Part shown: in pieces, positions 48,270 to 64,000 of the stretch
Numbering within the stretch: position 1 is the first letter of the stretch
How the letters are laid out: every line of letters starts with the position of its first letter
NCBI GenBank assembly: GCA_031275405.1
Contig: JAISOV010000049.1
Location: forward strand, 1 to 64,000
Direction: 5' to 3'
Length of the DNA: 64,000 bases
From: Clostridium sp.
GTDB taxonomy: Bacteria > Bacillota > Clostridia > Lachnospirales > Lachnospiraceae
Translations under genes and position numbers: made by a program
Notes under the pieces: model-generated
Database searches by the model: none
The model's input: only the letters and a program-made list of their open reading frames with translations
What the model was told of the DNA's origin: nothing

Positions 48270-48307
48270 CGAACCAAAACGAAACCACCATTAAGGAGGG
48301 CAACAAC

Positions 48308-48514: not shown

Positions 48515-48746
48515 CTTAACCACGCACGATTCCCGGAAGTCCTTTTATGGGAAATGCCACGTTATCCAATTTGAGGACGGAACAGAACGCCTATACAGCT
48601 ACGAAACGGCAATTATTGACAGTTTACCGTCCGGGGAGCTTGTCCGCATATGGGACGGATGGAGCGCGACAACAGGAAGACACATTATGGAATTTTGCGG
48701 ACTGAATAAAGCCGCATACGACAAATTAAGGAGGTTCGGACAATGA
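48501..48746 (+). CDS. Island protein 3, unknown (81 residues)
   Basis: Beta-rich: KCHVIQFEDGTERLYSYETAI, LVRIWDGWSATTGRHIMEF. Overlaps neighbours on both ends (ATGA at 48743). Function unknown. Confidence 0.6.
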   Translation: MKRYDLTTHDSRKSFYGKCHVIQFEDGTERLYSYETAIIDSLPSGELVRIWDGWSATTGRHIMEFCGLNKAAYDKLRRFGQ

Positions 48747-49492
48747 AAAATTTCAGAACAACAATCATGCCGGGGAAGCTCCCGCACGGAAGAAACGGCG
48801 CACTTGTTCCCGCGCATTTCGGCATTACCTTTACCGATGGCAAGTTATCAATTTCCGGCGTTATCGGCGCGAAGTCCAACGGTAATTGTTGGGGCGGCGC
48901 AGGGCAATGTATAGACGCGCTGAAAGATTCCGGGCTTGTATTGGCGGCAGGGTGGACGGCTGAAACGGTGGCGCGATTCGTTGAAGTGTGGGAACGGTGG
49001 CACTTGAACGATATGCGCCCGACGTGCGAACACCAACGCGCCGAAGGATGGCGCGAAAAAGCCGGGGAAAAAGTCACGTTGTACCATTGGACAATAAACA
49101 CGGACGCAAGCAAACAGAAACGCGCCGCCGAACGTGCCGCCACGGATGCGTTAAAAGCCGGGGAAACATTCACACCAACGCCGGAACAAGTATTCTTTGC
49201 GGGGCTTGAATACGGCATTACAACGCATACCGACACAATACCGGGCGAATTAGCCGCGCATTATGCGCCGCAAAAGTCACTTTACCCCGGCGGCAAAGGA
49301 CACACGGAAATAAAAACGCTTGGATGGTTGAAGCCGTCCGAACATCCCGAAGGGCTTTTGTGCCGTCCTTGCCCGGTATGCGGCTATCAATACGGCTCCG
49401 CATGGTTGCGGGAAGAAGTCCCCGAAGACGTTTTAGAATGGCTTTACGCGCTCCCGGCGGCGGCTGTACCGTGCGCTTGGGGTAGATTATAG
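48743..49492 (+). CDS. Island protein 4, unknown (249 residues)
   Basis: The largest product of this operon. LSISGVIGAKSNGNCWGGAGQ, VARFVEVWERWHLNDMRPTCEHQR, a Lys/Ala helix, LAAHYAPQKSLYPGGKGH, and a C-terminal CRPCPVCGYQYGSAW zinc-type motif. Gly/Trp-rich segments suggest a compact fold. I cannot assign a family or activity. Confidence 0.6.
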   Translation: MKNFRTTIMPGKLPHGRNGALVPAHFGITFTDGKLSISGVIGAKSNGNCWGGAGQCIDALKDSGLVLAAGWTAETVARFVEVWERWHLNDMRPTCEHQRAEGWREKAGEKVTLYHWTINTDASKQKRAAERAATDALKAGETFTPTPEQVFFAGLEYGITTHTDTIPGELAAHYAPQKSLYPGGKGHTEIKTLGWLKPSEHPEGLLCRPCPVCGYQYGSAWLREEVPEDVLEWLYALPAAAVPCAWGRL

Positions 49493-49504
49493 GAGGGCGA
49501 AACA

Positions 49505-49747
49505 ATGACGATTCAGAAAGTAAAAACGAGCGGTTACGATTCCGTTAAACCCGGCGCGATTGCTTATGACATACAAGTTATCGCCGCCACGGTTAACGAG
49601 CTTGTAAACCTATACGGCACACCGCAACAGAAAGACGCGCAAAAAGAAGTTTTAGCCGCTTGCAACAAAACACAGTTAAAAGCGATTGCGGCGGAGCTTG
49701 CCACGGTAGAAAAACGCTTGCGTTATATCCTATTAGGTCAATATTGA
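49505..49747 (+). CDS. Island protein 5, unknown (80 residues)
   Basis: Helical: IAYDIQVIAATVNELVNLYG, then LAACNKTQLKAIAAELATVE. Follows AGGAGGG at a normal distance. Function unknown. Confidence 0.55.
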   Translation: MTIQKVKTSGYDSVKPGAIAYDIQVIAATVNELVNLYGTPQQKDAQKEVLAACNKTQLKAIAAELATVEKRLRYILLGQY

Positions 49748-49782
49748 GAAGGATAACACTATGAATTGATGGAGGTTACACA

Positions 49783-50049
49783 ATGAATATTAACGACACG
49801 ATGAAAGAATTGGCCGAATATATCCGGTTGGGAGAAGAAGTCACGGCGAATATTGAAGGCTTGAAAGACGCGCTAAAAGCGTACATGAGCGAAAAAGGGC
49901 TTGACACATTGGCCGGGAATGAACACAAGGCAGCATACAAGGCGGTTGAAAGCAGCCGCATAGACACAACCGCATTGAAGAAAGCTATGCCCGACATAGC
50001 CGCACAATACACACGCACGACCACAAGCAAGCGATTCATATTCAGTTAA
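49783..50049 (+). CDS. Island protein 6, unknown (88 residues)
   Basis: MKELAEYIRLGEEVTANIEG, a coiled-coil-like helix, then MSEKGLDTLAGNEHKAAYKA and a TSKRFIF ending. The layout (helix, then a short hairpin ending in Arg-Phe) resembles small phage proteins associated with nucleases, but I cannot name it. Confidence 0.55.
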   Translation: MNINDTMKELAEYIRLGEEVTANIEGLKDALKAYMSEKGLDTLAGNEHKAAYKAVESSRIDTTALKKAMPDIAAQYTRTTTSKRFIFS

Positions 50050-50063
50050 AGGGAGGTAACAAC

Positions 50064-50333
50064 ATGACAAGACAATTACTTGATATGCGGCAACGTAAAA
50101 ACAAAAATCCGATGATTCAAGATTTTATTGACAACGTAATAATAAAATCGTGGACATGGGAGCGGTTGACGGAGGAAGAACAAGCCTTGACAAATGGCGT
50201 ATTAGCGGGTATACAATCAAAAGCTAAAACCCATGCGGGAGCGTCTAAAACCGTTAATCATCATTATGGGGTACTGTTAGCAACATTCGGTTACAAGCCG
50301 ATAGGATGGAGGGAGGGCGAAGAATGTTCATAA
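50064..50333 (+). CDS. Island protein 7, unknown (89 residues)
   Basis: IQDFIDNVIIKSWTWERLTEEE, VLAGIQSKAKTHAGASKTVN and LLATFGYKPIGWRE. GGGAGGTAAC precedes the ATG. It is followed by a tiny hydrophobic peptide and a terminator. Function unknown. Confidence 0.55.
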   Translation: MTRQLLDMRQRKNKNPMIQDFIDNVIIKSWTWERLTEEEQALTNGVLAGIQSKAKTHAGASKTVNHHYGVLLATFGYKPIGWREGEECS

Positions 50334-50392
50334 TATGCCTGATCCTTTTCCCGCTGCTACTGCTCAAATACTTGATAGACAATATGGATTGA
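50324..50392 (+). CDS. 22-residue hydrophobic peptide
   Basis: MFIICLILFPLLLLKYLIDN, nearly all membrane-spanning. The ATG overlaps the previous gene end and follows GGAGGG. Second tiny membrane peptide of the island; expression uncertain. Confidence 0.4.
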   Translation: MFIICLILFPLLLLKYLIDNMD

Positions 50393-50398
50393 CCCGGG

Positions 50399-50431
50399 CG
50401 CCCCTGACATATGAGCAGGGGCGTTTCTTTT
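50399..50431 (+). terminator. Terminator of the island operon
   Basis: CGCCCCTG (50399-50406) pairs with CAGGGGCG (50416-50423) over a 9-base loop, followed by TTTCTTTT. It closes the operon that starts at 47771. Confidence 0.85.
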
Positions 50432-50760
50432 GCCCCTGCGGCAGCGTACGCGCCATTTTAAGCGGCTTTTCTTTTGCCCATAGGGTAACAACATACCCCT
50501 GACGCCGCGCGGCGTGTAATGGACGTTTAAGGGGCGTATATAGGCATTGGCCTAACCCCGGCACGGCGTGTTTCCATGTCGTTACGGCGGCGCGGTTGAT
50601 GTGGAGGTTGTATAATGCGCCTTTATCATGGGCGGCGGGGCGCGGTTGCGTGTTCCCGGCATAACCCCGCCGGGGGGATATGCGGAAAGGGGGCGGCGGG
50701 GCAGGGAGTAGGCTGAGTTGTCTCAAAAAATAAAAAGACGAAAATTTTACATGAAAATGC
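50432..50760. other. GC-rich non-coding stretch
   Basis: About 330 bases with no frame I would defend. Several short palindromes (for example GACGCCGCGCGGCGT near 50501-50515) and runs of G and C occur. It could hold a packaging-related site or an RNA, but I see no specific signature. Confidence 0.4.
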
Positions 50761-50789
50761 GTGACATCCATCCGTGTTTGTGCTATACT
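50761..50789 (+). promoter_or_regulatory. Promoter of the second island XRE gene
   Basis: GTGACA, 17 bases, TATACT, followed by GGAGGTTTCACT and an ATG at 50813. Confidence 0.6.
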
Positions 50790-50812
50790 ATAACTCAAAA
50801 GGAGGTTTCACT

Positions 50813-51083
50813 ATGACTGACAAAGAAATTCTCCGAGAACTTATGAATCTCTCCTCAATGAGTTCGCCTGTTCTTGCAAAAAAAAATGAACTATACAACA
50901 CCGTCTGATGTGACGGAAAAACTTCGCAGGAAAGAATCCATACGAGTTGACACGTTCGTAAAATTTCTTTCCGCTCTGGATGGTACGTTACTGGTTCGCC
51001 ACGGAGACCAAGAGTTCAAGCTTGGTTTTGACACGAAAACGAGTTATGACCTCGATACACTCTTGAATGAGGGGGATGAGTGA
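50813..51083 (+). pseudogene. XRE-type regulator paralogue frameshifted at A9
   Basis: ATG at 50813 after AAAGGAGG reads MTDKEILRELMNLSSMSSPV and stops at 50906-50908. One base fewer in A9 (50878-50886) joins it to MNYTTPSDVTEKLRRKESIR, VDTFVKFLSALDGTLLVRHG and a C-terminal LDTLLNEGDE. The joined protein aligns with the minus-strand regulator at 47383 (EIxR, LAKxxxY, RVDTFVKxLSA). Slippage on A9 could still make full-length product. Confidence 0.65.
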
Positions 51084-51191
51084 AGTAGTAAAAGTAGTTG
51101 AAAATCGGTTTTTGCGTATAACTTCCTCTTGACGTGCGCGTACTGCAAGAAAGTTACCGCAAAATCAAAAGTTTAACTACTTTTACTACTT
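51083..51191. mobile_element. 109-bp element with 17-bp terminal inverted repeats, copy 2
   Basis: AAGTAGTAAAAGTAGTT (51083-51099) and its exact complement (51175-51191) bound a 55-base core (51110-51164) shared with copy 1 at 45266. Inside the core, TTGCG-AACTT and AAGTT-GCAA arms and CTTG/CAAG form an inner hairpin. It has no coding capacity. MITE-like, or a regulatory palindrome; it begins at the stop codon of the XRE gene. Confidence 0.65.
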
Positions 51192-51216
51192 CGGTAAAAT
51201 CAAAAGAGGTGATTTG

Positions 51217-52599
51217 ATGTTTAATTTATTTGTCACATTAGGAGCAATTATGCTTGTTGCCGTTCCTATTGTATTTATAATAGCAATAGTTAAAACCATC
51301 GGTAAGAAACCGCAGAAAAAGAGATGGTGGTTCATTTGCTTTAGCGCATTTGCTTTGATGATTACTTTTGAACTTATTGCGGCGGCTGTAGAATGTAAGC
51401 ACGAATGGACGGCTATAAGTGAAAGTATAGCTACTTGCACCGAGCGGGGAGAAATTAAGTATATTTGTAATAAATGCGAACGAGAGAAAACAGAATACCA
51501 AAAAGAACTCGGTCACAGCATGAGAATTATGGATAGAATAGAGCCAACTACTATTCTCGAAGGTGAAACAACTAAGCAGTGCGAAAGATGTGGATATGAG
51601 GAAGCAGAATTAATTGAAAAATTAGTAGTAACGGCAACATCCTCGTCGGCAACCGCCGAACAACCCATATCTTCTCCATCCGTTGCCACATCAGATGAAC
51701 GAACAGAGACGGAAAACGAATATTCTCTTACCACCGAAGAGATAAATATCTCAAAAGATGCGTATTTGCAAGAGTTTGCTAATGCTTGCACAGAAATTGG
51801 TCTTGACACCGCTTTAATAACGAAGTGGGAACAAGTGGACGATTGGGTGAATGGTGAAATATTTCATTTTACATACAAACGGCATCGCTTTGAGACGTAC
51901 ATTAACTTCGATGAAACAATAAGTTCTATCAACCTTGGTGGAACCGCTATATACAAACGTGGCTACGAACCGTATAAGGTAGATGATTATCTATTGGACG
52001 AAGATACGGCAGAGTCTCTCATTCCTTATGCGGAAGACACCGTTAAACTTGCTCTCAATTATCCCTCGACCGCTGATTTCCCGTTGCTCGATTGGTCATA
52101 TGGACGAGAGGGCAGTCTTTATCAACTTAAAAGTTCAGTAAAAGCTAAAAATGGATTCGGGGTCGTAGATGAAATTCCATTCACGGTGATATTCGACATA
52201 GGTACAGAGGGAAAAGCAAATTGTGTATATCTTCAATTGGACGGAGTAGTTGTCGCGGATGAGAGAACACCTGCGCCGGAAAGAAAACGAGTAGAAATTG
52301 ATACTAAGAGCGATGATGTGCCGGAGGGGAGTATTCGTCTTGTCGATGGCGAATTAGGGGAATACGGAAAGCAAGACCCCGTTTACCCGGAATACGTTGA
52401 TTATTACCTTCCTGTCGGACGCTATAAAGTCAAGAACAATACCAAAACGAGTATCGTCATGATAATTGACGAAGACAGTAATGATGAACTCAACCGATTA
52501 ACGCTTGATACTGGACAAAGCGGTGAGATTGAGATTACCGCAGGGCAACACATTGAACTGACAATGCATTCCGATGTTACATTGGCAGTAATCAACTAA
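51217..52599 (+). CDS. Membrane-anchored extracellular protein, unknown
   Basis: About 460 residues. Two hydrophobic helices near the N-terminus (AIMLVAVPIVFIIAIVK; FICFSAFALMITFELIAAA). Then a tandem Cys-Cys unit (CTERGEIKYICNKCEREK; CERCGYEEAEL) of zinc-ribbon look, a Ser/Thr-rich linker, and about 280 residues of mixed alpha/beta fold ending in a beta-sandwich-like domain (YYLPVGRYKVKNNTKTS). It lies just before terL, so it may be a lysogenic-conversion or exclusion gene; this is inference. Confidence 0.6.
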   Translation: MFNLFVTLGAIMLVAVPIVFIIAIVKTIGKKPQKKRWWFICFSAFALMITFELIAAAVECKHEWTAISESIATCTERGEIKYICNKCEREKTEYQKELGHSMRIMDRIEPTTILEGETTKQCERCGYEEAELIEKLVVTATSSSATAEQPISSPSVATSDERTETENEYSLTTEEINISKDAYLQEFANACTEIGLDTALITKWEQVDDWVNGEIFHFTYKRHRFETYINFDETISSINLGGTAIYKRGYEPYKVDDYLLDEDTAESLIPYAEDTVKLALNYPSTADFPLLDWSYGREGSLYQLKSSVKAKNGFGVVDEIPFTVIFDIGTEGKANCVYLQLDGVVVADERTPAPERKRVEIDTKSDDVPEGSIRLVDGELGEYGKQDPVYPEYVDYYLPVGRYKVKNNTKTSIVMIIDEDSNDELNRLTLDTGQSGEIEITAGQHIELTMHSDVTLAVIN

Positions 52600-52624
52600 T
52601 AAGAATAGAACAATGGAGTTTATC

Positions 52625-52670
52625 GGCGCATGATTGCGCGTTCTTCGGAACGTACAGTTATGCGCTTTTT
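52625..52670 (+). ncRNA. Repeated leader stem-loop, copy A (before terL)
   Basis: GCGCA (52626-52630) pairs with TGCGC (52661-52665). Inside, after TGAT/GTTA internal loops, TGCGCGTTC pairs with GAACGTACA (one mismatch) around a TTCG tetraloop. TTTTT follows. It ends 17 bases before the terL start. See copies B and C. Confidence 0.65.
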
Positions 52671-52686
52671 CTATGGGGGGGTAGTT

Positions 52687-54324
52687 ATGGAAACCGTGCT
52701 TGAAAAAATTCTCGAAAAGATAAAAAGGGCCGATTTTGATTTTCGGTCTTTTGAATACTGCTACTTCATTTGCAAGGAAGCTATGAAAACGGACATACCG
52801 CTTGGCGTGAAGTATCTCAAGGCTCTTGCTAAGAAGAGCGAATCACTTCTTCTTGGCAATAGGCTCTCCAGAAGCGATATGCAGAAGTTATTCGGCCTGC
52901 ACAAGAGGGTTTTGCTCGAAGCCGCCCCGTATGACTTTGACTGTTATCTCCTATATGTGGAGTGGGAAAGGGACGCTGAAAAGCGATTTTATCTCCCCCG
53001 CCGTGGAGTGCTTTCTCCGCTCGTACAGGCGATGCAGGATATGATGGAGGAAAAACTCGACCTGCTGACGATTTCTATGCCGCCGGGTACCGGCAAGTCA
53101 ACGCTCGGAATCTTCTTCCTCTCTTGGGTTATGGGGAAGTTCCCGGACGGTCAAAACCTTGCAGCGGCACACAGCGGGATGTTGACCCGCTCGTTCTTTG
53201 ACGGCGTGTACCAAACCATCACCGACCCGGACTATCTCTGGGCAGATGTATTCCCCGGCGTCCGGCTTGCGTCCACCAACACCAAAGAGGAAACAATCGA
53301 CCTCAATAAGAAGCATCGGTTCTCGACCTTGACGTGCCGAGCCATCAATGCTTCTCTCACAGGCGCGACCCGCTGTGATAAGATTCTCTATGCCGATGAC
53401 TTGTGTTCCGGCATCGAAGAAGCTATGAGCAAGACACGACTCGACAAGCTGTGGGCGTCCTATACCAACGACCTCAAATCCCGTAAGAAAGAGGGCGCAA
53501 AGGAGATCCATATTGCTACGAGGTGGTCTGTGCATGACGTTATCGGCAGACTCGAACAGCAATACGGCTCTGATTCGAGGGCGCGGTTTATCGTCCTTCC
53601 TGCGCTTGATGAGAAAGGCTCGAGTAATTTCCGATATGCCTATGGTGTGGGATTCAGCAAGGAGTATTTTGAAGATATGCGGCTCAACCTTGATGACGCA
53701 TCGTTCAAAGCTCTGTACATGAATGAACCAATCGAGCGCGAGGGGCTTGTTTACCATGCGGACGAGCTGCGGAGATACTTCGAGCTTCCGAAAGAAGCCC
53801 CGGATGCCATCATCGGTATCTGCGATACTAAAGACAAGGGAACGGACTACGCTTTCCTCCCGGTGGCGTATATGTACGGCCAGAACTATTACATTCACGA
53901 CTGCGTGTGTGATAATGGTTTGCCGGATGTCGTGGATGCCCGGCTCTCTGAAATTCTGCTCCGGCACAAGGTCAAATCCTGCCGCTTTGAAAGCAACTCG
54001 GCGGGTGGCCGTGTCGCGGAGAAGATACAAGGTGAGATAAAAAAGAAAAACGGTATTACCCATATCACGACCAAATTCACTTCGGCTAATAAAGAAACGA
54101 AAATAATCGTGAATAGCGCGTGGGTGAAAGAGCATTGTGTGTTCAAAGACGCTTCGCTATACTCACGGCCGAGCGAGTACGGCAAGATGGTTGATATGCT
54201 ATGTTCGTACACAATGGCAGGAAAGAACGCTCACGATGACGTGCCGGACGGAATGGCGATGCTGGCAGAGTACGCGCAGTCGCTTCAAGGAAGCGTGGTT
54301 GAGGTCATGGAAAGACCTTGGTAA
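52687..54324 (+). CDS. terL: Terminase large subunit
   Basis: A 545-residue packaging motor. ATPase domain with Walker A PPGTGKST (about 142-149), Walker B ILYADDLC, and ATRWSVHDVIGRL as the coupling motif. The nuclease domain has ICDTKDKGTDYAF, FESNSAGGRVAEKI, and HDDVPDGMAMLAEY with the expected acidic residues. It would translocate and cut phage DNA together with the small subunit encoded about 6 kb upstream. Start at 52687 after a G7 run (GGGGGGG) acting as ribosome site; translation of upstream Met codons would run through the leader hairpin. Confidence 0.93.
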   Translation: METVLEKILEKIKRADFDFRSFEYCYFICKEAMKTDIPLGVKYLKALAKKSESLLLGNRLSRSDMQKLFGLHKRVLLEAAPYDFDCYLLYVEWERDAEKRFYLPRRGVLSPLVQAMQDMMEEKLDLLTISMPPGTGKSTLGIFFLSWVMGKFPDGQNLAAAHSGMLTRSFFDGVYQTITDPDYLWADVFPGVRLASTNTKEETIDLNKKHRFSTLTCRAINASLTGATRCDKILYADDLCSGIEEAMSKTRLDKLWASYTNDLKSRKKEGAKEIHIATRWSVHDVIGRLEQQYGSDSRARFIVLPALDEKGSSNFRYAYGVGFSKEYFEDMRLNLDDASFKALYMNEPIEREGLVYHADELRRYFELPKEAPDAIIGICDTKDKGTDYAFLPVAYMYGQNYYIHDCVCDNGLPDVVDARLSEILLRHKVKSCRFESNSAGGRVAEKIQGEIKKKNGITHITTKFTSANKETKIIVNSAWVKEHCVFKDASLYSRPSEYGKMVDMLCSYTMAGKNAHDDVPDGMAMLAEYAQSLQGSVVEVMERPW

Positions 54325-54354
54325 AATTAATTTATTGCATTTTGCGATTACCTA

Positions 54355-54383
54355 TTGACACCGGCGTAGTTTCGTGTTATAAT
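54355..54383 (+). promoter_or_regulatory. Perfect-consensus late promoter before the portal gene
   Basis: TTGACA (54355-54360), 17 bases, TATAAT (54378-54383): the full sigma-A consensus. Transcription would start near 54390, some 18 bases before leader stem-loop copy B. Confidence 0.85.
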
Positions 54384-54407
54384 ACGGTTAAAGAATATAG
54401 TAGTGAT

Positions 54408-54457
54408 GGCGCATGATTGCGCGGAGGCTTGGACTCCGTGCATTTGTGCGCTTTTTT
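54408..54457 (+). ncRNA. Repeated leader stem-loop, copy B (before portal)
   Basis: GCGCA (54409-54413) pairs with TGCGC (54447-54451). After internal loops TGAT/TTTG, TGCGCGGAG pairs with CTCCGTGCA (one wobble) around GCTTGGA. Six T residues follow. It sits at the 5' end of the transcript from the consensus promoter and 26 bases before the portal start, so it could act as an attenuator or as a stabiliser of the late mRNA. Confidence 0.7.
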
Positions 54458-54482
54458 GCATTCAGGGGGGGAGGGTGTTGAT

Positions 54483-55904
54483 ATGGCGAGTTTCGGCCGC
54501 AGGAAGATTCTCTTAGACGTTGGGAGAGTCCACGAAGGCAATGTCCTCGATGTCCTGAAAAGAGCCTTGGAAGTCCATCGGCTGAACAGCAAGGAGTGTC
54601 AGCATCTCATTGACTACTATAAGGGTAAACAGGGTATATTAGACCGCACAAAAGCTGTGCGCGAAGAAATCAACAATAAGATTCTCATCAACCATGCTAA
54701 TGAGATTGTCAGCTTTAAGGTCTCATATCTGCTTTCAGAGCCTATCGCATACGTCACTCGCGGTGGCGGGAACGCCGCCGAAAAGGTCAACGCTCTCAAC
54801 GAGATGATGTATCTCAATAACAAAGCCGCGAGAGACAAGGAAATCGCTGACGATTTCACGATTTGCGGTCAAGCGTACCGTATGGTGCTGCCGAACAAGG
54901 CAGAGGGGGACGATGAGCCGCCATTCAAGGTTTATACCCTTGACCCTCAATGTACGTTTGTGGTCTACAATAGCGGCTTGGGCGAAGAACCGATTTGTGC
55001 TGTCAAATATGTTTCGATACCCGATATGTTTGGTGATTCTGCGAAAGAGCCTACGTTTGATACTGTCTATAGCATTTACACGCCGGATATGTACTTCGAG
55101 GTCAAGAACGATATTCTTCAAACGGAAAAGACCAAACATCATTCCTTGGGTATGGTTCCGATTTTCGAGTATATGAACAACAATGCCCGGCTTGGCGCAT
55201 TTGAGGTTGTCGAAACGATTCTTGACGCAATCAACACCTTGGCAAGTAACCGTGTTGACGCTACCGAACAGGTCGTGCAGGCTCTTATGGTTTTCGTAAA
55301 TTGCGAGATTGACTCGGATCAGTACGATGAAATGCGGAAAAAGGGCGCAGTTAAGATAAAGTCTGTTGACGGAGCCACGAGTGACATTAAGTTGCTGACG
55401 GCAGACTTCAAACAGGCTGACCAACAGGTTCTGACGGATGCCTTGTACAATATCATGCTTAAAATCACAGGGATGCCGACACAGGCAAGCGAAACCAGTT
55501 CGGACAGTTCCAACAACGGAGCTATGATTGTCAAAAACGGTTGGTTCCACGCCGAAGCGAGGGCTAAGGATACGGAGCTTCTTTGGAGAGAAGCGGAGGG
55601 TAATTTCCTCAAGCTCGTGCTGAAAATCTGCCGTGAAACCGGGGATTTAGACATAAAACTGTCTGAATTTACACCCAAGTTCAGCAGGAAAAATTATGAG
55701 GATGTCCAAACAAAGAGCCAAGTTCTTACCGCGATGCTTGCGACCGATAAAATAGCACCTCGCCTTGCTTTCGCCCACTGCGGCCTTTTTGTCGATAGCG
55801 AGAGCGCATATTCTGAAAGCAAGGAGTGGTACGAAGCGAGTATGGTTCGAGAAGAAGAAAAACTGCCCGATGAGACCATTCTTGTGGAGGACGAACAAAC
55901 ATGA
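54483..55904 (+). CDS. Phage portal protein (SPP1 gp6-like)
   Basis: A 473-residue protein. YYKGKQGILDRTKAV near residue 45 is the usual early motif, followed by NKILINHANEIVSFKVSYLL, PIFEYMNNNARLGAFEVVET and KITGMPTQASETSSDSSNNG. Portal subunits form the ring for DNA entry and tail attachment. The start at 54483 follows GGGGAGGG. It overlaps the next gene by four bases. Confidence 0.9.
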   Translation: MASFGRRKILLDVGRVHEGNVLDVLKRALEVHRLNSKECQHLIDYYKGKQGILDRTKAVREEINNKILINHANEIVSFKVSYLLSEPIAYVTRGGGNAAEKVNALNEMMYLNNKAARDKEIADDFTICGQAYRMVLPNKAEGDDEPPFKVYTLDPQCTFVVYNSGLGEEPICAVKYVSIPDMFGDSAKEPTFDTVYSIYTPDMYFEVKNDILQTEKTKHHSLGMVPIFEYMNNNARLGAFEVVETILDAINTLASNRVDATEQVVQALMVFVNCEIDSDQYDEMRKKGAVKIKSVDGATSDIKLLTADFKQADQQVLTDALYNIMLKITGMPTQASETSSDSSNNGAMIVKNGWFHAEARAKDTELLWREAEGNFLKLVLKICRETGDLDIKLSEFTPKFSRKNYEDVQTKSQVLTAMLATDKIAPRLAFAHCGLFVDSESAYSESKEWYEASMVREEEKLPDETILVEDEQT

Positions 55905-56485
55905 GTAAGGAAGTCTGGAAAGACATTGAGGGTTACGAGGGGAAGTATCAAGTAAGCAACGAGGGCAAGGTCAGAACACTCAATTATAAGCGAACGGGGC
56001 GCATGGCCGTGATGTCTCCCTGCAAATCACGATGGGGATATGTATGCGTTAATTTATGGAACAACGGTCAACGGAAGTTTCGCAAAATTCATAGGCTCGT
56101 GGCGATGGCGTATTTGGAAAACCCAAACGAATTACCCTTCGTACATCATAAAGACGAAAATAAGACAAACAACAATGTGTCGAATTTGGAATGGAGCAGT
56201 GTCTCTCACAATACTCAATCTTTTGTAAATAATCATCCCGAATGGAAACAAAAGATAGGGGATGCTCAACTTGGTAAATCGAAACCGAGTACTTGGAGAG
56301 CGATTGAACAGCGTGATTTACAAGGGAATGTGGTCTCTTCTTTTTGCTCGATAAAAGACGTCGCCAAAAAGACACACTTGTTGGAGACGAGTATTGTCAG
56401 ATGTTGCAAGGGGAAAGCGAAAACCTGCGGAGGTTATAAGTGGCAGTACGCCGCTCGATATACCGAGTCAGAGAAGACTCGTTAA
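55901..56485 (+). CDS. NUMOD4-HNH homing endonuclease
   Basis: A 194-residue free-standing endonuclease: VWKDIEGYEGKYQVSNEGKV (NUMOD4), KIHRLVAMAYLENPNEL and HHKDENKTNNNVSNLEW (HNH), then a C-terminal NUMOD-type helix-turn-helix (CSIKDVAKKTHLLETSIVRC). It is inserted between portal and scaffold, joined to the portal by ATGA. Third such gene or remnant near packaging genes in this prophage. Confidence 0.88.
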   Translation: MSKEVWKDIEGYEGKYQVSNEGKVRTLNYKRTGRMAVMSPCKSRWGYVCVNLWNNGQRKFRKIHRLVAMAYLENPNELPFVHHKDENKTNNNVSNLEWSSVSHNTQSFVNNHPEWKQKIGDAQLGKSKPSTWRAIEQRDLQGNVVSSFCSIKDVAKKTHLLETSIVRCCKGKAKTCGGYKWQYAARYTESEKTR

Positions 56486-56546
56486 TCAAACTCAATGTGG
56501 TGCAGAGAAGCACTCAAAACTACACAATAATTAGGAGGAAGTTAGC

Positions 56547-57125
56547 ATGGCTATCGAATGGAGTTCTATTGAGGGTTATTCCGAAGGAATGAGTGATTCC
56601 GAAAAATTGGCGTTGCTCGAAAATCAATCGACAGATGGTTCCCCAAAAGTTGAGAAAGAAACTGAAATCGAAGACGAGACCAAAGTCGAGACCAAAGTCG
56701 ATACAAAATCCGCCTCGAAAATGGTTGACAAAAAGCTTTTCGATAAGGCGGCGAGCGAGGTCGCTAACCTAAAGCGTCAATTACGCGCTAAAATGAGCGA
56801 GGACGAAGCGAAAGAACTCGACCGTCAGCAGGAAATGGAGAGCGCGAAGCAGGAACTTGAACAGCTTCGGAAAGAAAAAACGCTGACCGCTTACAAGGCA
56901 TCGTTCCTTTCCATCGGCTACGATGACGAGCTTGCTTCGGAGACGGCTGACGCTTTAGCCGAGGGTGATATGGACGCTGTATTCACCAACATGAAGAAGT
57001 ACGGCGCGAATATCGAGAAAGCCCTCCGCGCTAAGATTCTCAAAGAGACACCTGCCCCTCCTGCCGGAAACAGTAAAGACGAAAAGGACAAAGACCCCTT
57101 TATCGAAGCATTTAAGAAAGGATGA
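56547..57125 (+). CDS. Phage scaffold protein (DUF4355-like)
   Basis: A 192-residue acidic, helical protein. A repeated Lys/Val/Glu/Thr stretch (TKVETKVDTKS) precedes a long coiled coil (EAKELDRQQEMESAKQELEQ), and a short basic tail DPFIEAFKKG follows, as in capsid scaffolds. Directly before the capsid gene. Confidence 0.82.
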   Translation: MAIEWSSIEGYSEGMSDSEKLALLENQSTDGSPKVEKETEIEDETKVETKVDTKSASKMVDKKLFDKAASEVANLKRQLRAKMSEDEAKELDRQQEMESAKQELEQLRKEKTLTAYKASFLSIGYDDELASETADALAEGDMDAVFTNMKKYGANIEKALRAKILKETPAPPAGNSKDEKDKDPFIEAFKKG

Positions 57126-57135
57126 GTGATGGAAA

Positions 57136-57966
57136 ATGATCAATTACGCTGAAAAGTATTCCCCGGTCGTGGACGAGAGGTTCTCTCTCGCGTCCATCAC
57201 CAACGTAGCGTTTAATACCGACTACGATTGGGCGGGTGTGCAGACCGTAAACGTCTATTCCGTAGCTACTACGGCAATGAACAACTACACGCGCACAGGC
57301 GCGAACCGCTACGGCACTCCTGCTGAATTGCAGGACACGAAACAGGCAATGACGATTACCCGCGACCGCGCTTTCACGCAGACTATCGACAGAGGTAACG
57401 ACATCGACCAGTTGGGCATTAAGTCTGCCGCTCGTGCGTTGCGCCGCCAGATGGATGAGGTGGTTATCCCCGAATTGGACATCTACCGTATCTCGGTTGT
57501 CGCGGCCGCCGCGAACCCGGCAAATGTCGATGCTACAACGGCTACGGCGGCGAACGCCTACAGTCTGTTCCTCAAGGGGCAGGAAGCTCTCGGCAATGCG
57601 AAAGTTCCTACGGTAGGGCGCGTTGCCTATATGACCTACGCCTACTATAACCTCCTGAAACTTGACCCCGCTTTTATCAAGCAGGGCGATATGTCACAGG
57701 AGATGCTTCGCGCAGGTATGATGGGTATGGTGGACGGCGTTCCGCTTGTTCCTGTTCCAGCCAGTTATCTTCCCGCCGGTCAGCAGTTTCTGATCTGGCA
57801 TCCGCGGGTCGCGGTCGCGCCTGTGAAACTGTCCGAGCTTCACATCCACGTTGACCCGCCCGGTATCTCCGGCGTTCTCATTGAGGGCAGATTCTATTAT
57901 GACTGCTTCGTCTTGGAAAACAAGAGAGATGCTATCTACAGTTGCACCAAAGAAGTCGATTCGTAA
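57136..57966 (+). CDS. Major capsid protein
   Basis: A 276-residue protein. MINYAEKYSPVVDERFSLAS, then FTQTIDRGNDIDQLGIKSA, LDIYRISVVAAAAN and RVAYMTYAYYNLLKLDP match capsid proteins of Clostridia siphoviruses. The size suits an HK97-fold subunit without a long delta domain. Follows scaffold at normal distance. Confidence 0.88.
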   Translation: MINYAEKYSPVVDERFSLASITNVAFNTDYDWAGVQTVNVYSVATTAMNNYTRTGANRYGTPAELQDTKQAMTITRDRAFTQTIDRGNDIDQLGIKSAARALRRQMDEVVIPELDIYRISVVAAAANPANVDATTATAANAYSLFLKGQEALGNAKVPTVGRVAYMTYAYYNLLKLDPAFIKQGDMSQEMLRAGMMGMVDGVPLVPVPASYLPAGQQFLIWHPRVAVAPVKLSELHIHVDPPGISGVLIEGRFYYDCFVLENKRDAIYSCTKEVDS

Positions 57967-57978
57967 GGGGGAACAATT

Positions 57979-58143
57979 ATGATTACAGTTCAAAAGGACG
58001 GCAGAACCCAGGCCCTTCATAGCGATGTACAGGCGGCGGCGTTTGTGGCGAACGGCTGGGAGGTTGTAAATACCGCCGAAACCAAGGGCGAGAAAACTTC
58101 CGGGAAGACGAAAGGCAGTGAAGGCGCGAAATCTTCTAATTAG
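57979..58143 (+). CDS. 54-residue capsid-adjacent protein
   Basis: MITVQKDGRTQALHSDVQAA and AFVANGWEVVN, then a Lys/Gly/Ser tail. Proteins like this often sit after the capsid gene, possibly a head-completion or decoration component. GGGGG precedes the ATG. Confidence 0.65.
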   Translation: MITVQKDGRTQALHSDVQAAAFVANGWEVVNTAETKGEKTSGKTKGSEGAKSSN

Positions 58144-58218
58144 GAAGAGCCTGCAAAAGGACACTGATGGGAACCGGACGAAGTCGAAGGATCCAACGGC
58201 TGATAGGAGGCGGATGAT

Positions 58219-58533
58219 ATGACTCTTGATGAAAAACTGACGGCTTTAAGAGCGATGGTCGGCGGCCCTGATACAGATGAAGTATTATCCACTTACCTCA
58301 CATTAGCCGGGGGGAAAATCATTGCGAAAGCCTTTCCGTACCGAACGGACGTGACCGAAGTTCCGGAGCGGTACGATTATCTGCATCTTGAGGTTGCCGC
58401 ATATATGCTGAATAAGCGCGGTGCGGAACAACAGGTGAGCCATTCGGAGAACGGCATCGCCCGGAGTTGGGAGAGTGGCGATGTACCGAGTTCATTGATA
58501 AATCAAGTCACACCAGTCGTGGGGGTTCTGTAG
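58219..58533 (+). CDS. Head-tail connector (gp6-like)
   Basis: A 104-residue protein: LDEKLTALRAMVGGPDTDEV, YLTLAGGKIIAKAFPYRTDV, LEVAAYMLNKRGAEQQ and SWESGDVPSSLI. This matches DNA-packaging/connector proteins that bind beneath the portal. Confidence 0.82.
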   Translation: MTLDEKLTALRAMVGGPDTDEVLSTYLTLAGGKIIAKAFPYRTDVTEVPERYDYLHLEVAAYMLNKRGAEQQVSHSENGIARSWESGDVPSSLINQVTPVVGVL

Positions 58534-58552
58534 GGGGGAGGGGGGCGGGTGG

Positions 58553-58975
58553 ATGAAGTGCCTGACTCGCAACAAAGTTGAGTTCTACTATGCGTTGTAC
58601 GAAGGTAAACAGCCTGTTACGATAACCGATAAACGGGGGAATGAAATACAAACGGGGGAGTACGAAGTCATACACGGAGACCCGGTTCAAAGCTACGCCA
58701 ACATCTCTCCCGCAAAAGGCGAGGTGCAGACCCGGCAGTTCGGAGAAGGCGATTCCTATGACAAAGTTATAGTCTTGGAAAAGGACGCTCCATCTCTGGA
58801 TGAATACTCGTGGCTGTGGGTAGACACAATGCCGCTCTCGGATGAGTACGGCGGCTTGGCGGTAGATTCCGATGGCGAAGTCCTCACCCCTCACGATTAC
58901 GTTGTGACAAGACGTGCCGCTTCGATTAACTCCGTAGCATACGCCATACGGAAAGTGAACGTCGATGGTCACTAA
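58553..58975 (+). CDS. Head-closure (stopper) protein
   Basis: A 140-residue, beta-rich protein: VEFYYALYEGKQPVTITDKR, NISPAKGEVQTRQFGEGDSY and LWVDTMPLSDEYGG. Order in the operon and motifs fit the head-closure component. A GGGGCGGGTGG stretch precedes the ATG. Confidence 0.75.
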   Translation: MKCLTRNKVEFYYALYEGKQPVTITDKRGNEIQTGEYEVIHGDPVQSYANISPAKGEVQTRQFGEGDSYDKVIVLEKDAPSLDEYSWLWVDTMPLSDEYGGLAVDSDGEVLTPHDYVVTRRAASINSVAYAIRKVNVDGH

Positions 58976-59486
58976 AGTCATTCGCTTCGGATTGTCCCAA
59001 AAACAGGTGGCAGGGGCGATAAAGGAGCTTCAAGCCTACAAGCGCGACCTCATTCAAAAGACCGACCTCCTGCGAGAGCGAATAGCGGCAGAGATAGCCA
59101 ACAATGCTCAAAGCGGATTTGCGGGAGCGATTGTCGATGACCTGTTGCGAGGCGGCAAACGAATTGCCGAAGTTGACGTGACTGTAAGCGACCGAGATAA
59201 TATCTCAATCGTAGTTGCGAACGGCGAAGACGCAATCTGGGCTGAATTTGGTAGCGGGGTTTTTCACAATGGTTCGGCAGGAAGTTCACCTCACCCGAAA
59301 GGGCAGGAATTGGGGTTCACCATCGGCGGGTATGGCAAAGGTATGGGCAAAAGAAACGTGTGGGGATTTTACGAAAACGGAGAATTGAAACTGACACACG
59401 GCGCACCCGCCGTGATGCCGATGTTTAATTCCGTGAAAATGGTTTGCGAAGATATTGTTTCTATAGCGCGGGAGGTGTGGCGATGA
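58965..59486 (+). CDS. HK97 gp10-like tail component
   Basis: A 173-residue protein: SQKQVAGAIKELQAYKRDLI, VVANGEDAIWAEFGSGVFHN and THGAPAVMPMFNSVKMV, typical of HK97-gp10-like proteins needed for head-tail joining. Overlaps neighbours on both sides. Confidence 0.82.
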   Translation: MVTKVIRFGLSQKQVAGAIKELQAYKRDLIQKTDLLRERIAAEIANNAQSGFAGAIVDDLLRGGKRIAEVDVTVSDRDNISIVVANGEDAIWAEFGSGVFHNGSAGSSPHPKGQELGFTIGGYGKGMGKRNVWGFYENGELKLTHGAPAVMPMFNSVKMVCEDIVSIAREVWR

Positions 59487-59887
59487 TCGATGCGGAAAGC
59501 CTCATATTTTCGGAAATCTCAAGCAAGGTTCGGGAGCAGTATCCGAAAGCCTTTGTCACAGGCGAGTACGTGCCTTCGCCGCCGTCTTTCCCCTGTGTAT
59601 CCCTGGTCGAGGTGGACAACGCTACCTTCCGCAACTCGCAGACACAGGAGAGCAGCGAGAACCACGCCGCCGTGACCTACGAGGTGAACGTGTACTCGAA
59701 CAGAACGACAGGCAAAAAAGCGCAATGCCGGGAGATAGCGGCTTTGGTGAACGATTTGCTCATGGGGCTGAACTTCACTCGGATGATGCTTGAGCCTGTA
59801 CCAAACCAAAACGATGCGACCATATACCGGATACTCGGACGTTACCGGGCGGCTGTCTCAAAAGACCAGACAATATTTAGGAGATGA
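59483..59887 (+). CDS. Tail terminator-like protein
   Basis: A 134-residue protein: IFSEISSKVREQYPKAFVTG, PSFPCVSLVEVDNATFRN and EVNVYSNRTTGKKAQCREIA. Position between the gp10-like gene and tail tube fits the tail-terminator role. The ATG at 59483 overlaps the previous stop region. Confidence 0.75.
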   Translation: MIDAESLIFSEISSKVREQYPKAFVTGEYVPSPPSFPCVSLVEVDNATFRNSQTQESSENHAAVTYEVNVYSNRTTGKKAQCREIAALVNDLLMGLNFTRMMLEPVPNQNDATIYRILGRYRAAVSKDQTIFRR

Positions 59888-59966
59888 CAGCGTTCGCACT
59901 GTTTCACTCAAAACAACTGGCGGTTCCGTTCGGAAATACGCCGATTAAAGAAAGGATTGGTAAATC

Positions 59967-60404
59967 ATGGCGATAAGCACGTACAAAATTTTCCTGATGA
60001 AGGGAACGACTGCCGATAGCACAACCACGTGGGCAAAGCTGGTCGACATCAAGGATTTCCCCGACCTCGGCGGTGCGCCGGAGATGTTGGAGACCACCAC
60101 GCTCTCCGACAAGATGCAGACCTACATCCCCGGTATCCAGAGCCTTGACGCGCTCGAATTTACCGCGAACTACACGCTTGCGGACTTCCGGACGCTCAAA
60201 GCCCTTGAGGGTACGGAACTCGACTTGGCTGTGTGGTTCGGCGGCACAGAGAACGGCGGCGTTCTGACTCCGACCGGGAGTGACGGCAAGTTCGAGTTCA
60301 GAGGCCAGATTTCGGCGTTCCCGGTCGGCAGCGGCGTGAACGAGGTTGTCGATATGACAATCACGATTGCTCCGTCCTCGCCCATCACTCTGGCTACGGC
60401 TTAA
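59967..60404 (+). CDS. Major tail tube protein
   Basis: A 145-residue protein: YKIFLMKGTTADSTTTWAKL, DFPDLGGAPEMLETTTLSDK and GQISAFPVGSGVNEVVDMTI. The motif order of phage tail-tube monomers. AAAGGATTGG precedes the ATG. Confidence 0.85.
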   Translation: MAISTYKIFLMKGTTADSTTTWAKLVDIKDFPDLGGAPEMLETTTLSDKMQTYIPGIQSLDALEFTANYTLADFRTLKALEGTELDLAVWFGGTENGGVLTPTGSDGKFEFRGQISAFPVGSGVNEVVDMTITIAPSSPITLATA

Positions 60405-60426
60405 AAAATAACAGGAGGACAGTGAA

Positions 60427-60753
60427 ATGATGAAAGCAATGCTCTCCCAACCCATGAGAGGCAAGACTCACGACGAAATAATTACTACACGCGACAAGGC
60501 GATCCGCGTATTGACGGAAAAAGGGTATGAAGCTATCAATACCCTTTTCGCGGACGAATGGTACAATGACGAGCAGATGAACAAGCGCGGGGTTGTGCAA
60601 AAACCTTTGTGCTTTCTTGCGAAAAGTCTTGAAAATATGTCGCTCTGTCACGCGGCGTACTTTGCGAAAGGCTGGCAGGACGCGAGAGGTTGTCGCATTG
60701 AACACGAAGCGGCAGTTGCTTACGGACTCGAAGTTATTTATGAGGAGGATTAA
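60427..60753 (+). CDS. DUF4406-like protein inside the tail operon
   Basis: A 108-residue protein: KAMLSQPMRGKTHDEIITTR at the N-terminus, LCFLAKSLENMSLCHAAYFA and KGWQDARGCRIEHEAAVAYG. This resembles DUF4406, related to nucleoside 2-deoxyribosyltransferase folds. It is not a structural protein by type and lies between tail tube and chaperone genes, so it is probably an accessory insert. Confidence 0.65.
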   Translation: MMKAMLSQPMRGKTHDEIITTRDKAIRVLTEKGYEAINTLFADEWYNDEQMNKRGVVQKPLCFLAKSLENMSLCHAAYFAKGWQDARGCRIEHEAAVAYGLEVIYEED

Positions 60754-60756
60754 GAG

Positions 60757-61086
60757 ATGAGTAAAACACTTCGATTTGCCGCTGACGGCAAGGATTACAC
60801 GCTTGAGTTCACGCGCCGTACGGTCTCGGAGATGGAGAGAAAGGGCTTTATCGCTTCGGAAATCACCGACAAGCCTATGACCACTCTCCCCGCTTTGTTT
60901 GCGGGGGCGTTCCTCGCGCATCACAGGTTCGTCAAGCAGGAAGCCATCGACGGTATCTTCTCCAGACTTGCGAAGAAGGAGGAGCTTATCGGCAAGCTGG
61001 CCGAGATGTACAGCGAGCCGATCATGACGCTTGTCGAGGATCCGGAACCTTCGGCGGGAAACTTGGACTGGGCAGCGAGCTGGTAA
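60757..61086 (+). CDS. Tail assembly chaperone, upstream frame (gpG-like)
   Basis: A 109-residue protein: TLRFAADGKDYTLEFTRRTV, PALFAGAFLAHHRFVKQEAI and LIGKLAEMYSEPIMTLVED. It holds the slippery site GGGAAAC eight codons before its stop. A minority of ribosomes should shift to the -1 frame and make the longer chaperone that guides the tape measure. Confidence 0.8.
   Translation: MSKTLRFAADGKDYTLEFTRRTVSEMERKGFIASEITDKPMTTLPALFAGAFLAHHRFVKQEAIDGIFSRLAKKEELIGKLAEMYSEPIMTLVEDPEPSAGNLDWAASW
61056..61062 (+). promoter_or_regulatory. Programmed -1 frameshift site GGGAAAC
   Basis: In the zero frame it reads G-GGA-AAC, the canonical X-XXY-YYZ pattern. Slipping one base back continues LGLGSELVSDPLSDETGG and bypasses the stop at 61084-61086. 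Confidence 0.85.
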
Positions 61087-61529
61087 GCGATCCGCTGTCT
61101 GACGAGACAGGGGGGAGCGGCAGTGAAACTCCAGCTCCCCTTGCCGCTTACGAAGCAAAATTCAACGAGCTGTTCCCGCTGTACCTCTGTATGGGGATGA
61201 CGGAGGAGCAGTACTGGGACAAAGACTGTAGCCTTGCCGTTCATTACCGCAAAGCGGACGAAATGAAGCAAGCTCGGCGTAATCAGGAGCTGTGGCTGCA
61301 GGGCAGGTATATCTATGACGCTTTATGTTCGGTTTCGCCGATACTTCATGCTTTCGCGAAGAAAGGTGCGAAACCGAGACCTTATTTATCGGAGCCTTAT
61401 TCTGTTTCAAAGACACAGGCCGAGACAAAAGAGGACGAAAAGGCCAGGAAGACCTACGACAAAGGCAAGCGGCTGATGGAACGCTTTCTGGTAGACACCA
61501 ATAAGAAGTTCGATAAAGCCAGTGAGTGA
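61062..61529 (+). CDS. Tail assembly chaperone, frameshift extension (gpT-like)
   Basis: The -1 frame adds about 155 residues: PAPLAAYEAKFNELFPLYLC, MTEEQYWDKDCSLAVHYRKA and QELWLQGRYIYDALCSVSP. There is no good start in this frame, and the helical, charged content fits the T part of lambda-type gpGT. The fused product would be about 257 residues. Confidence 0.78.
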   Translation, partial: LGLGSELVSDPLSDETGGSGSETPAPLAAYEAKFNELFPLYLCMGMTEEQYWDKDCSLAVHYRKADEMKQARRNQELWLQGRYIYDALCSVSPILHAFAKKGAKPRPYLSEPYSVSKTQAETKEDEKARKTYDKGKRLMERFLVDTNKKFDKASE

Positions 61530-61530
61530 T

Positions 61531-61580
61531 GGGCGCATAACTGCGCAGAGATAGATTTCTCCGTCTATTACGCGCCTTTT
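61531..61580 (+). ncRNA. Repeated leader stem-loop, copy C (before tape measure)
   Basis: GGCGC (61532-61536) pairs with GCGCC (61572-61576), with TAAC/TTAC-type internal loops, an inner arm GAG/CTC, and TTTT directly after. Starts two bases after the chaperone stop and ends 31 bases before the tape measure start. More diverged than copies A and B, but with the same architecture. Confidence 0.6.
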
Positions 61581-61610: not shown

Positions 61611-64000
61611 ATGTCCGAGCCTACAGTCGAAAGATTACAAATTGAAGTAGAGTCAAATGCTACTCCGGCGGCAAGCGGCATAGACGCTCTTGCTTCCACT
61701 CTAGATAAATTAAGAAACGCTACTAAAGGCGGCGCGGGGCTTACTGCCTTTTCCAAGCGGCTGGGTGTGTTAAACACAGCGTTGAAATCCATAACTACCG
61801 AAAACGCGAACAAACTGGATAAAATTACAAATAGTTTACAGAGGCTTTCTTCTCTTGGAAGTCTCAAGATCTCGTCTTCGATTGCATCACAGATAACAAA
61901 CCTTGGCGGCGCAGTCCGTTCATTGGACGGTGCCGGTTTCGGTGCGCTTGATACGCTTGTGACCTCGCTGACGCCGTTATCATCGCTGGGCAAGTCGAAC
62001 CTGAACAGTTTCATATCCCAACTGACAAGGCTGCCGCAGGCGGTGGCGGCTCTCGGGGCTACTGATTTCGCAAGTTTCAGCGCCCAGATAAACCAGCTTG
62101 CCGCGGCTCTCGCTCCGCTGTCTTCGATGGGGAAGAACAATCTCACATCGTTTATCACGCAGCTGTCGAAGCTCCCGGCGCTGATGGCTTCGTTGCAGTC
62201 TATAGATATGGGTACGCTGGCCGCACAGGTTCAGGCGTTGGCGAATGCGTTCGCTCCCCTCGCCACTCAGATGCAGCATATATCAGCGGGGTTCGCGGCG
62301 TTCCCTGCGAGGATCCAGAGGTTGGTTACCTCCACGAACAGATTGAGTTCCGCGAACAATAAGGCAAGCAAGGGTTATGTCAATCTTGCGGCGAAACTGG
62401 CGATTGCCGCGGCCTCACTAAAAACTCTTGTACGGACTATCGGCTCGTGGGTTAAAAAATCAAATCAGTATAGCGAAGACCTGAACCTGTTTATGGCTTC
62501 GATGGGAGAATACGCTGACGAAGCCAAACGCTATGCGGAAACAGTCGGCGAGATAATGGGCATCGACCCCGGCGGGTGGATGAGAAATCAAGGTCTGTTT
62601 ATGACGCTTGCCACCGGGTTTGGGGTCGCGGGTGACAGAGCGGAGATAATGAGCCGTAACCTCACTCAGCTCGGTTATGACCTGTCTTCGTTCTTCAATA
62701 TGAGTGTTACGGATTCGATGGCGAAGCTCCAATCAGGGCTTGCGGGTGAGCTTGAACCTCTCCGCAGAATCGGTTATGACTTGTCGGTTACGAAATTGCA
62801 GCAGGAAGCCGATACGCTTGGCATTAAGAAAAAAGTACAGGCTATGACACAGGCTGAAAAGGCTGAGTTACGCTACTATGCTATAATGAAACAGGTAACG
62901 GTAGCGCAGGGCGATATGGCGCGTACTCTGGAATCCCCTGCGAATCAGCTTCGTATTTTGAAAGAACAAGTCGAAATGGCAGGGCGTTCGTTGGGTGACA
63001 TTTTCATTCCCGCGCTGAACGCTGCTTTTCCTTATGTCATTGCGTTCGTAAAAGTCATTCGTATTATCGCGGACGAGATCGCCAGTCTCGCAGGGTTTAC
63101 TCTGCCTGAAGTGGATTATAGCGGTATAGAAACCATTACCGGGAGCGGCGTGGAAGACACGCTCAGCGATGCCGCAGAAAAAGCGAAAGAGCTTAAAAAC
63201 AATCTTCTCGGCATTGACGAACTGAACATTATCTCAAAGGAAGAAGACAACGGTAGCGGTCTCGGAGACATAGGCGGCGGTGGCGGTCTTGGCTTTGAGT
63301 TGCCCGACAATAAGAATTGGCTTAATGGTGTTGTTAATAAGAGGGTCGAGGAGATTATAGGAAAAATACAATCTGCGATAGACAAGATGAAAGAATGGTT
63401 CGGGCTGACTGAACCTATTAAGTCATGGGCTGATTTTATGAACACTCGGCTCTATGACATTCTTACTCCTGTCGGCGCAATCGCGGCGGGTATCGCCGCA
63501 TGGAAACTCATCGGTTTCTTAAAGAAACTGGAGCTGATTCCTATCACCTTGAAACAAATTACAGGACTTGCTTTGGCGGTGGCCGGAGCGTTCGAGTACG
63601 CTATGCAGTATTGGAACGCTTGGGTAAATGGAGTTGATTTGGAGAACTTCATCGGTCTGCTTGCAGGAGCGGCGGCGGTAATCGGAGGTCTTGCAATATC
63701 GTTTGGTTCAGTAGGAGCGGCGATTGGTGCGGCTGTGACAGGCGTCGGTCTGTTCGTCCTCGGTGTCAAGGATGCTATCACGAACGGATTGAATTGGCTA
63801 AACGCTGTTCTTATTCCACTCGGCTCTACGCTTTCCGGAGCAGGGATAGGAGCCTTAATAGGTACGCCTGGCGGCCCGATAGGCGCGGGTATCGGTGCGC
63901 TGATCGGCCTTGTGGTAGGTCTTCTTGTAGATTTAGGAATACTCATCTATGAAAATTGGGATGAGATTTGTGCTTGGTTCGCTGACCGTTGGAATGATGT
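61611..64000 (+). CDS. Tape measure protein (cut by the window end)
   Basis: At least 796 residues without a stop. ATG at 61611 follows GAAGGGAGTG. The N-terminal 230 residues contain imperfect repeats of about 47 residues (SSLGKSNLNSFISQLTRLP; SSMGKNNLTSFITQLSKLP). Then a conserved TMP segment (YSEDLNLFMASMGEYADEAK, ELRYYAIMKQVTVAQGDMAR, TLESPANQLRILKEQ), and hydrophobic helices rich in Gly/Ala from about residue 615. It sets tail length and helps DNA entry. The gene continues beyond the window. Confidence 0.9.
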   Translation, partial: MSEPTVERLQIEVESNATPAASGIDALASTLDKLRNATKGGAGLTAFSKRLGVLNTALKSITTENANKLDKITNSLQRLSSLGSLKISSSIASQITNLGGAVRSLDGAGFGALDTLVTSLTPLSSLGKSNLNSFISQLTRLPQAVAALGATDFASFSAQINQLAAALAPLSSMGKNNLTSFITQLSKLPALMASLQSIDMGTLAAQVQALANAFAPLATQMQHISAGFAAFPARIQRLVTSTNRLSSANNKASKGYVNLAAKLAIAAASLKTLVRTIGSWVKKSNQYSEDLNLFMASMGEYADEAKRYAETVGEIMGIDPGGWMRNQGLFMTLATGFGVAGDRAEIMSRNLTQLGYDLSSFFNMSVTDSMAKLQSGLAGELEPLRRIGYDLSVTKLQQEADTLGIKKKVQAMTQAEKAELRYYAIMKQVTVAQGDMARTLESPANQLRILKEQVEMAGRSLGDIFIPALNAAFPYVIAFVKVIRIIADEIASLAGFTLPEVDYSGIETITGSGVEDTLSDAAEKAKELKNNLLGIDELNIISKEEDNGSGLGDIGGGGGLGFELPDNKNWLNGVVNKRVEEIIGKIQSAIDKMKEWFGLTEPIKSWADFMNTRLYDILTPVGAIAAGIAAWKLIGFLKKLELIPITLKQITGLALAVAGAFEYAMQYWNAWVNGVDLENFIGLLAGAAAVIGGLAISFGSVGAAIGAAVTGVGLFVLGVKDAITNGLNWLNAVLIPLGSTLSGAGIGALIGTPGGPIGAGIGALIGLVVGLLVDLGILIYENWDEICAWFADRWND

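Follow-up and report, generated by a model that had tools for sequence, protein, structure and literature searches.

What is a hairpin followed by a run of T doing in front of three late genes of a single prophage? The question is raised by a stretch of 64,000 nucleotides (nt) from Clostridium sp. (Lachnospiraceae; assembly GCA_031275405.1, contig JAISOV010000049.1, positions 1 to 64,000), hereafter the window, which carries a temperate prophage with an integrase (25386-26402) and a CI-like repressor with an S24 peptidase domain (26414-27055). A sequence-only reading had noticed the hairpins before terL, the portal gene and the tape-measure gene, and had proposed a leader RNA acting as an attenuator, a stabiliser or a protein-binding site. 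We consider it somewhat better than an even chance (about 0.55) that each copy is a regulated intrinsic terminator, or attenuator, which stands before a block of late genes in a temperate clostridial phage, keeps that block off by default, and is opened late through a second hairpin, HP1, that competes for the 5´ arm of the terminator.

Hairpins followed by four or more T are indeed present at all three places, on the + strand. Element A, in the terL leader (52625..52670), consists of a hairpin at 52625-52665 and a U tract at 52666-52670, element B, in the portal leader (54408..54457), of a hairpin at 54408-54451 and a U tract at 54452-54457, and element C, in the tape-measure leader and now placed at 61532..61580, of a hairpin at 61532-61576 and a U tract at 61577-61580. 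All share the 5´ side GGCGCATNANTGCGC, followed by a variable stretch, a 3´ arm of the GCGC type and a run of four to six T. The exact motif has three matches in the 2.98-Mb assembly, all within the prophage and on the + strand (reversed-pattern control, 0). Minimum free energies are -26.5, -30.7 and -17.1 kcal/mol for A, B and C, with z-scores against dinucleotide shuffles of -6.4, -6.4 and -2.6. The first genes 3´ of the elements, also on the + strand, have the identities first proposed: terL (52687..54324; PHROG 38, E 1e-62), an SPP1-type portal gene (54483..55904; PF05133, E 2e-73; PHROG 64) and a tape-measure gene that continues past the window (61611..64000; PHROG 1535, E 2e-41).

Searches for TerL, portal, capsid and tail-tube proteins in IMG/VR and GTDB contigs yielded about 230 loci, and the sequence upstream of terL and portal was read at every locus covering that stretch. 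The same element occurs in dozens of loci, its letters strongly divergent and its plan unchanged. A covariance model of the long hairpin alone (R1), run over about 2.8 Mb, gave 90 distinct + strand matches, the window copies A, B and C scoring 42.2, 46.0 and 40.6 bits. Of these matches, 44 could be attributed to a terL gene and 42 to a portal gene, and two more on cut contigs (L112, L082) lie in a portal or terL leader by position; altogether 88/90 precede terL or portal in clostridial phages or prophages. Candidate cultured carriers are Criibacterium bergeronii (L042) and Acetitomaculum ruminis DSM 5522 (L082). The other two precede a tape-measure gene, one in the window and one in a decayed prophage (L238/L268); among 50 tape-measure upstream regions the element was found in the window alone. 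In L268 the order is terS, a DUF5055 gene, the element and a frameshifted tape-measure gene, everything from terL to the tail tube being gone. Other routes were less informative. An exact-pattern scan of IMG/VR gave five matches, apparently by chance, inside genes and none at a terL or portal leader; a single-sequence terL scan of GTDB contigs gave no matches, where a profile scan succeeded; and a local scan for three-strand pairing that took no account of energy was swamped by noise (329 forward vs 272 reverse). Weaker R1 matches in Clostridia genomes were discarded, none lying at terL or portal and several belonging to a different leader type. BLAST of the leaders against 50,697 records of cultured phages returned nothing relevant, and the best TerL among these records has 47% identity.

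The long hairpin has the marks of a terminator. In 63 distinct sequences, 92.7% of cells in its 12-base-pair (bp) outer part are paired and 11/12 pairs show two-sided changes, the paired co-variation that the sequence-only reading had asked for. The covariation score is 0.616, compared with 0.292 for shuffled sequences and at most 0.18 for slid-structure controls. Over the 9 nt after the stem 76% of letters are T, and TTTT is present in 85/90 elements. A stable, GC-containing hairpin with a U tract directly 3´ is the structure of an intrinsic (Rho-independent) terminator, and because the hairpin covaries and ends in such a tract it is, as far as sequence can tell, an intrinsic-terminator-type hairpin under selection. 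Translational control by occlusion of the Shine-Dalgarno sequence was rejected, since that sequence lies outside the hairpin.

The 5´ arm of the terminator also pairs with its own neighbour, as the 4-5 bp HP1, the main feature of the element and one absent from the sequence-only reading. In the window, the 5´ half of each copy is predicted to fold on itself as GCGCA-UNAN-UGCGC: GCGCA-UGAU-UGCGC in A (52626..52639, overlapping the terminator 5´ arm, predicted alone at -6.9 kcal/mol and covarying in relatives) and in B (54409..54422, where three-way pairing is seen as well), and GCGCA-UAAC-UGCGC in C (61533..61546). Predicted folds of the half-made RNA have HP1 and immediately thereafter a further hairpin, HP2, together worth -11 to -14 kcal/mol; HP2 is GUUC-UUCG-GAAC in A (52640..52651) and GGAG-GCUUGGA-CUCC in B (54423..54437). 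The terminator 3´ arm of A, CAGUUAUGCGC, follows at 52655..52665 (columns 68-78 of alignment A6); all these parts are on the + strand. Relatives have the window's GCGCA-UGAU-UGCGC as well as GUGCG-UUAU-CGCAC, CGUAA-UGAU-UUACG, GCGUA-UGUU-UACGC and others. The outer bases of the HP1 3´ arm (columns 20-22) are unpaired in the consensus long hairpin, yet they track changes of the 5´ arm.

Alignment A6 was initially selected for HP1, which biases its HP1 counts, and unbiased sets were made separately. Among 57 leader hairpins picked for a long stem and U tract alone, blind to HP1, 45 have an HP1 stem of at least 4 bp, compared with 131/448 control hairpins from the same loci; shuffled 5´ arms form HP1 in 24%. 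HP1 is found in 89/90 R1 matches, as opposed to a mean of 63 and a maximum of 71 when 5´ halves are swapped between phages, and in the single match without it (L108, portal) one 5´-arm letter mismatches both partners together. The 5´ base pairs in both helices at 401/407 positions. For two HP1 pairs, the TerL tree requires at least 8 and at least 10 changes of the 5´ letter. In all supported contrasts both partners either shifted in the same direction or were unchanged, and none shifted in the opposite one. The stem is variable (20 arms) and the loop conserved (U first in 84/90, A third in 76/83), a combination shared with hairpins recognised by their loop. An in-frame AUG in the HP1 loop, from which the listed terL open reading frame (ORF) runs (52630), was set aside, being absent from relatives with a UUAU loop. 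In predicted folds HP1 is present in 78/90 of the 34-nt intermediates and in 0/90 complete elements; HP2 is found in 79/90. The leader therefore has, by sequence and energy prediction, two mutually exclusive structures of which one is a terminator, the architecture of an attenuator or switch. HP1 and the terminator are rivals for a single strand, and both are under selection.

In front of B lies a sigma-70-type promoter, TTGACA-17-TATAAT with an extended -10 (54355..54383, + strand), at the start of the portal transcript; the perfect consensus reported for it (12/12) is borne out. Portal copies in relatives likewise have a consensus promoter with an extended -10 (mean score 11.1 vs 8.1 shuffled; at least 9.5 in 40/42), which is retained even in relatives without the hairpin. 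About 28 nt separate the -10 from the portal element, which begins about 20 nt into the predicted transcript. This spacing leaves no room for a leader peptide before the portal element and speaks against ribosome-mediated attenuation there. No promoter signal was detected upstream of terL copies (7.42 vs 7.46 shuffled) or in front of A and C in the window. Several phages have an extra ORF between the element and terL or portal, so that the element still leads the block. A late-gene leader selected for its structure, as first supposed, is strongly supported by the homologues in corresponding positions, the covariation and the promoter. At the portal promoter of 9/14 loci we also noticed a palindrome, CACAAGATATTGTG or at most two letters off, which occurs nowhere else in 219 kb. 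It sits in the promoter spacer (L101:10476, L106:11711, L097:3710, L042:11707, L050:11660 and others) and is likely the operator of some regulator.

We infer termination in vivo, a default-off state and a dedicated factor, as follows. HP1 would form from the first 14 nt of the emerging RNA, and HP2 from the stretch that comes out next. Once made, the 3´ arm would pair with the HP1 loop and the 5´ arm; HP1 would open and the long hairpin would form just 5´ of the U tract, halting the polymerase. Transcripts from the portal promoter, or reaching terL from upstream, would by default end at the element, so that a lysogen would not express its packaging and head genes. At a late stage of lytic growth, an agent holding HP1 would keep the 5´ arm from the 3´ arm and the polymerase would pass. 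This agent would most likely be a phage-encoded RNA-binding or polymerase-bound antitermination factor. Because the finished terminator is far more stable, HP1 would have to take effect ahead of 3´-arm synthesis, or else be kept in place by a factor. More tentatively, the system may represent late antitermination with the recognition hairpin inside the terminator 5´ arm, such that one RNA of 50 nt is both stop and docking site for the factor, and each genome has copies of this module at two or three of its gene blocks.

Several observations weigh against this reading. Compared with the terminator, HP1 is by far the less stable structure (median -9.9 kcal/mol for the intermediate vs -28.1 kcal/mol for the whole element) and could accordingly act only kinetically or when stabilised. 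Supported independent tree contrasts are few, 3-4 per pair, and the training sequences of R1 were first picked with HP1. An antitermination gene was not recognised among the prophage proteins scanned. The expectation that homologous phages carry the hairpin is borne out in part: terL and portal copies are widespread without being universal, and the copy before the tape-measure gene is almost confined to this phage. The portal element is missing from some close relatives that keep the promoter, so it can be dispensed with. Termination and read-through are themselves deduced from sequence and folding prediction.

An unlikely competitor is a plain insulator, in which constitutive terminators keep the late genes free of stray transcripts that arise in the accessory region or at the portal promoter, a general system of processive antitermination overrides these terminators, and HP1 does no more than tune their efficiency. 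Unrelated hairpins of two other sequence classes occupy the same place in other clostridial phages, suggesting that a terminator there matters more than its sequence, and conjugation operons with multiple internal terminators and a processive antiterminator are documented (PMC8955417, PMC11658703). An insulator gives no reason to expect a second hairpin that covaries and has a conserved loop, its occurrence in 89/90 elements, or a consensus promoter right before the terminator. Early in the portal transcript come two neighbouring stem-loops (HP2 in 79/90, promoter in 40/42). They bring to mind put RNAs, in which a pair of stem-loops lies a short way downstream of a promoter (PMC9378689), and HP1 and HP2 might likewise bind the polymerase directly and make it resistant to later terminators without any protein. 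We regard this as improbable: put is about 70 nt long, with bulges and a triplex and no overlapping terminator. In the phage element the active form would be undone by a 3´ arm belonging to the same 50-nt stretch, and the terL and tape-measure copies lack promoters.

HP1 might also be read as DNA, a palindromic site GCGCA-N4-TGCGC for a dimeric repressor or a roadblock. The terL and portal copies of one phage are more alike than random partners (similarity 0.864 vs 0.681; 0/2000 shuffles), as expected of the sites of one regulator, and part of this likeness may come from shared descent. The chance of an operator seems slim, given two different half-sites within one phage (TGCGA/CGTAA in L153, GTGCA/CACA in L011), 14 G-U pairs in HP1, which fit RNA better than a DNA palindrome, a third strand, the terminator 3´ arm, that changes along with HP1, and the separate operator-like palindrome already at the portal promoter of several relatives. 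Slimmer still is the case for mRNA processing or a 5´-end stabiliser, by which a stable hairpin shortly 5´ of the genes would protect or mark late mRNA ends: the U tract kept in 85/90 is needless for this purpose, the exclusive hairpin is left unexplained, and the portal hairpin lies about 20 nt from the predicted transcript start and not at the end. The attenuator thus remains the best fit among the three roles first proposed, and a protein-binding site is possible by way of HP1.

Rfam 15 covariance models gave no match in the window region up to E 5, nor in the relatives, and no published description was found in a literature coverage that was chiefly open-access and did not include the 2017 survey of 224 candidate RNAs. 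Attenuators as such are known; the family, the built-in competitor hairpin and the place before late genes look new. In phage lambda, the late promoter pR' has a promoter-proximal terminator, tR', that is overcome by Q antitermination. The portal leader is similar in having a strong promoter, a short leader and a terminator, then late genes; it differs in that the element is reused before terL, and rarely the tape-measure gene, without a promoter, and in its alternative hairpin. The boxB of lambdoid nut sites has a short variable stem and a conserved small loop, is repeated in the phage genome and is not part of a terminator. HP1 shares these features except that it is built into the terminator, and boxA-like sequences upstream of the element score no better than shuffled ones (best match 5.28 vs 5.22), unlike a nut site. 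Q antitermination is also covered in PMC7171158; no relative of Q was found among the proteins scanned.

The logic of competition is closest to that of ANTAR targets (EutV), where a protein holds a small hairpin overlapping the terminator 5´ arm, to the exclusion of the terminator (PMC8934654). ANTAR targets comprise two hexaloop hairpins with A1 and G4 (PMC8934654), whereas the phage element has the single overlapping HP1 with a U-N-A-N tetraloop, and position 4 of A-UGAU-U or G-UUAU-C is occupied by A instead of G; no ANTAR domain was matched among the prophage proteins scanned. HK022 putRNA similarly has two adjacent stem-loops early in a phage transcript, but binds polymerase alone and outside any terminator (PMC9378689), while HP1 is part of one. 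Gram-positive mobile elements also join internal terminators with antitermination, in canT of Tn916 and conAn of pLS20, where antiterminator and terminators are separate sequences (PMC11658703, PMC8955417); in the phage element they share one arm.

Other features of these loci deserve mention. Two free-standing NUMOD4/HNH homing endonucleases are encoded in the prophage, one adjoining terS (45472-46065) and one after portal (55901-56485). The terS-terL interval (window 46600-52600) is a variable region in related phages. A small serine recombinase is found there in 93/125 loci, the window having no match to it, and a 70-amino-acid helix-turn-helix protein in 72/125 (window copy 50874-51083). 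Both are associated with presence of the element, possibly via relatedness; the upstream helix-turn-helix gene accompanies it in 37/44 against 9/35, an association confounded by relatedness. A second class of hairpin at terL and portal leaders has a direct repeat GAGCC-N3/4-TGAGCC, one 3´ arm GGCTC and a U tract, i.e. two 5´ arms per single 3´ arm (L014, L015, L061, L065, L072, L075, L076, L078, L154, L155). A third, CAGGGACTA...TAGTCCCTG with a U tract, stands before terL or between late genes (L164, L194, L197, L201, L203 in the terL leader, L018:2755, L211). Clostridia genomes further contain a recurrent leader with two tandem terminators, GTGTGtAGCAAC...GTTGATGCGTTTTTCGGTGCATAAC...GTTATGCACTTTTT, without an Rfam match (L240, L241, L243, L244, L245, L248, L249). 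The TerL of L017 (7106-9763) has an in-frame insert of about 330 amino acids at Walker A (GK/ST), which carries motifs resembling those of homing endonucleases and ends in HN before Ser. It is apparently an intein, with Arg and not Cys or Ser as first residue, and terL of L027 is split at the same place.

In conclusion, how temperate phages silence their strong late promoters in lysogens of gut Clostridia is hardly known. The element described here is compact and widespread and has a searchable model, which makes the question directly testable and provides a handle for finding the factor. Covariation of three strands, with one arm and two partners, is rarely so clean.

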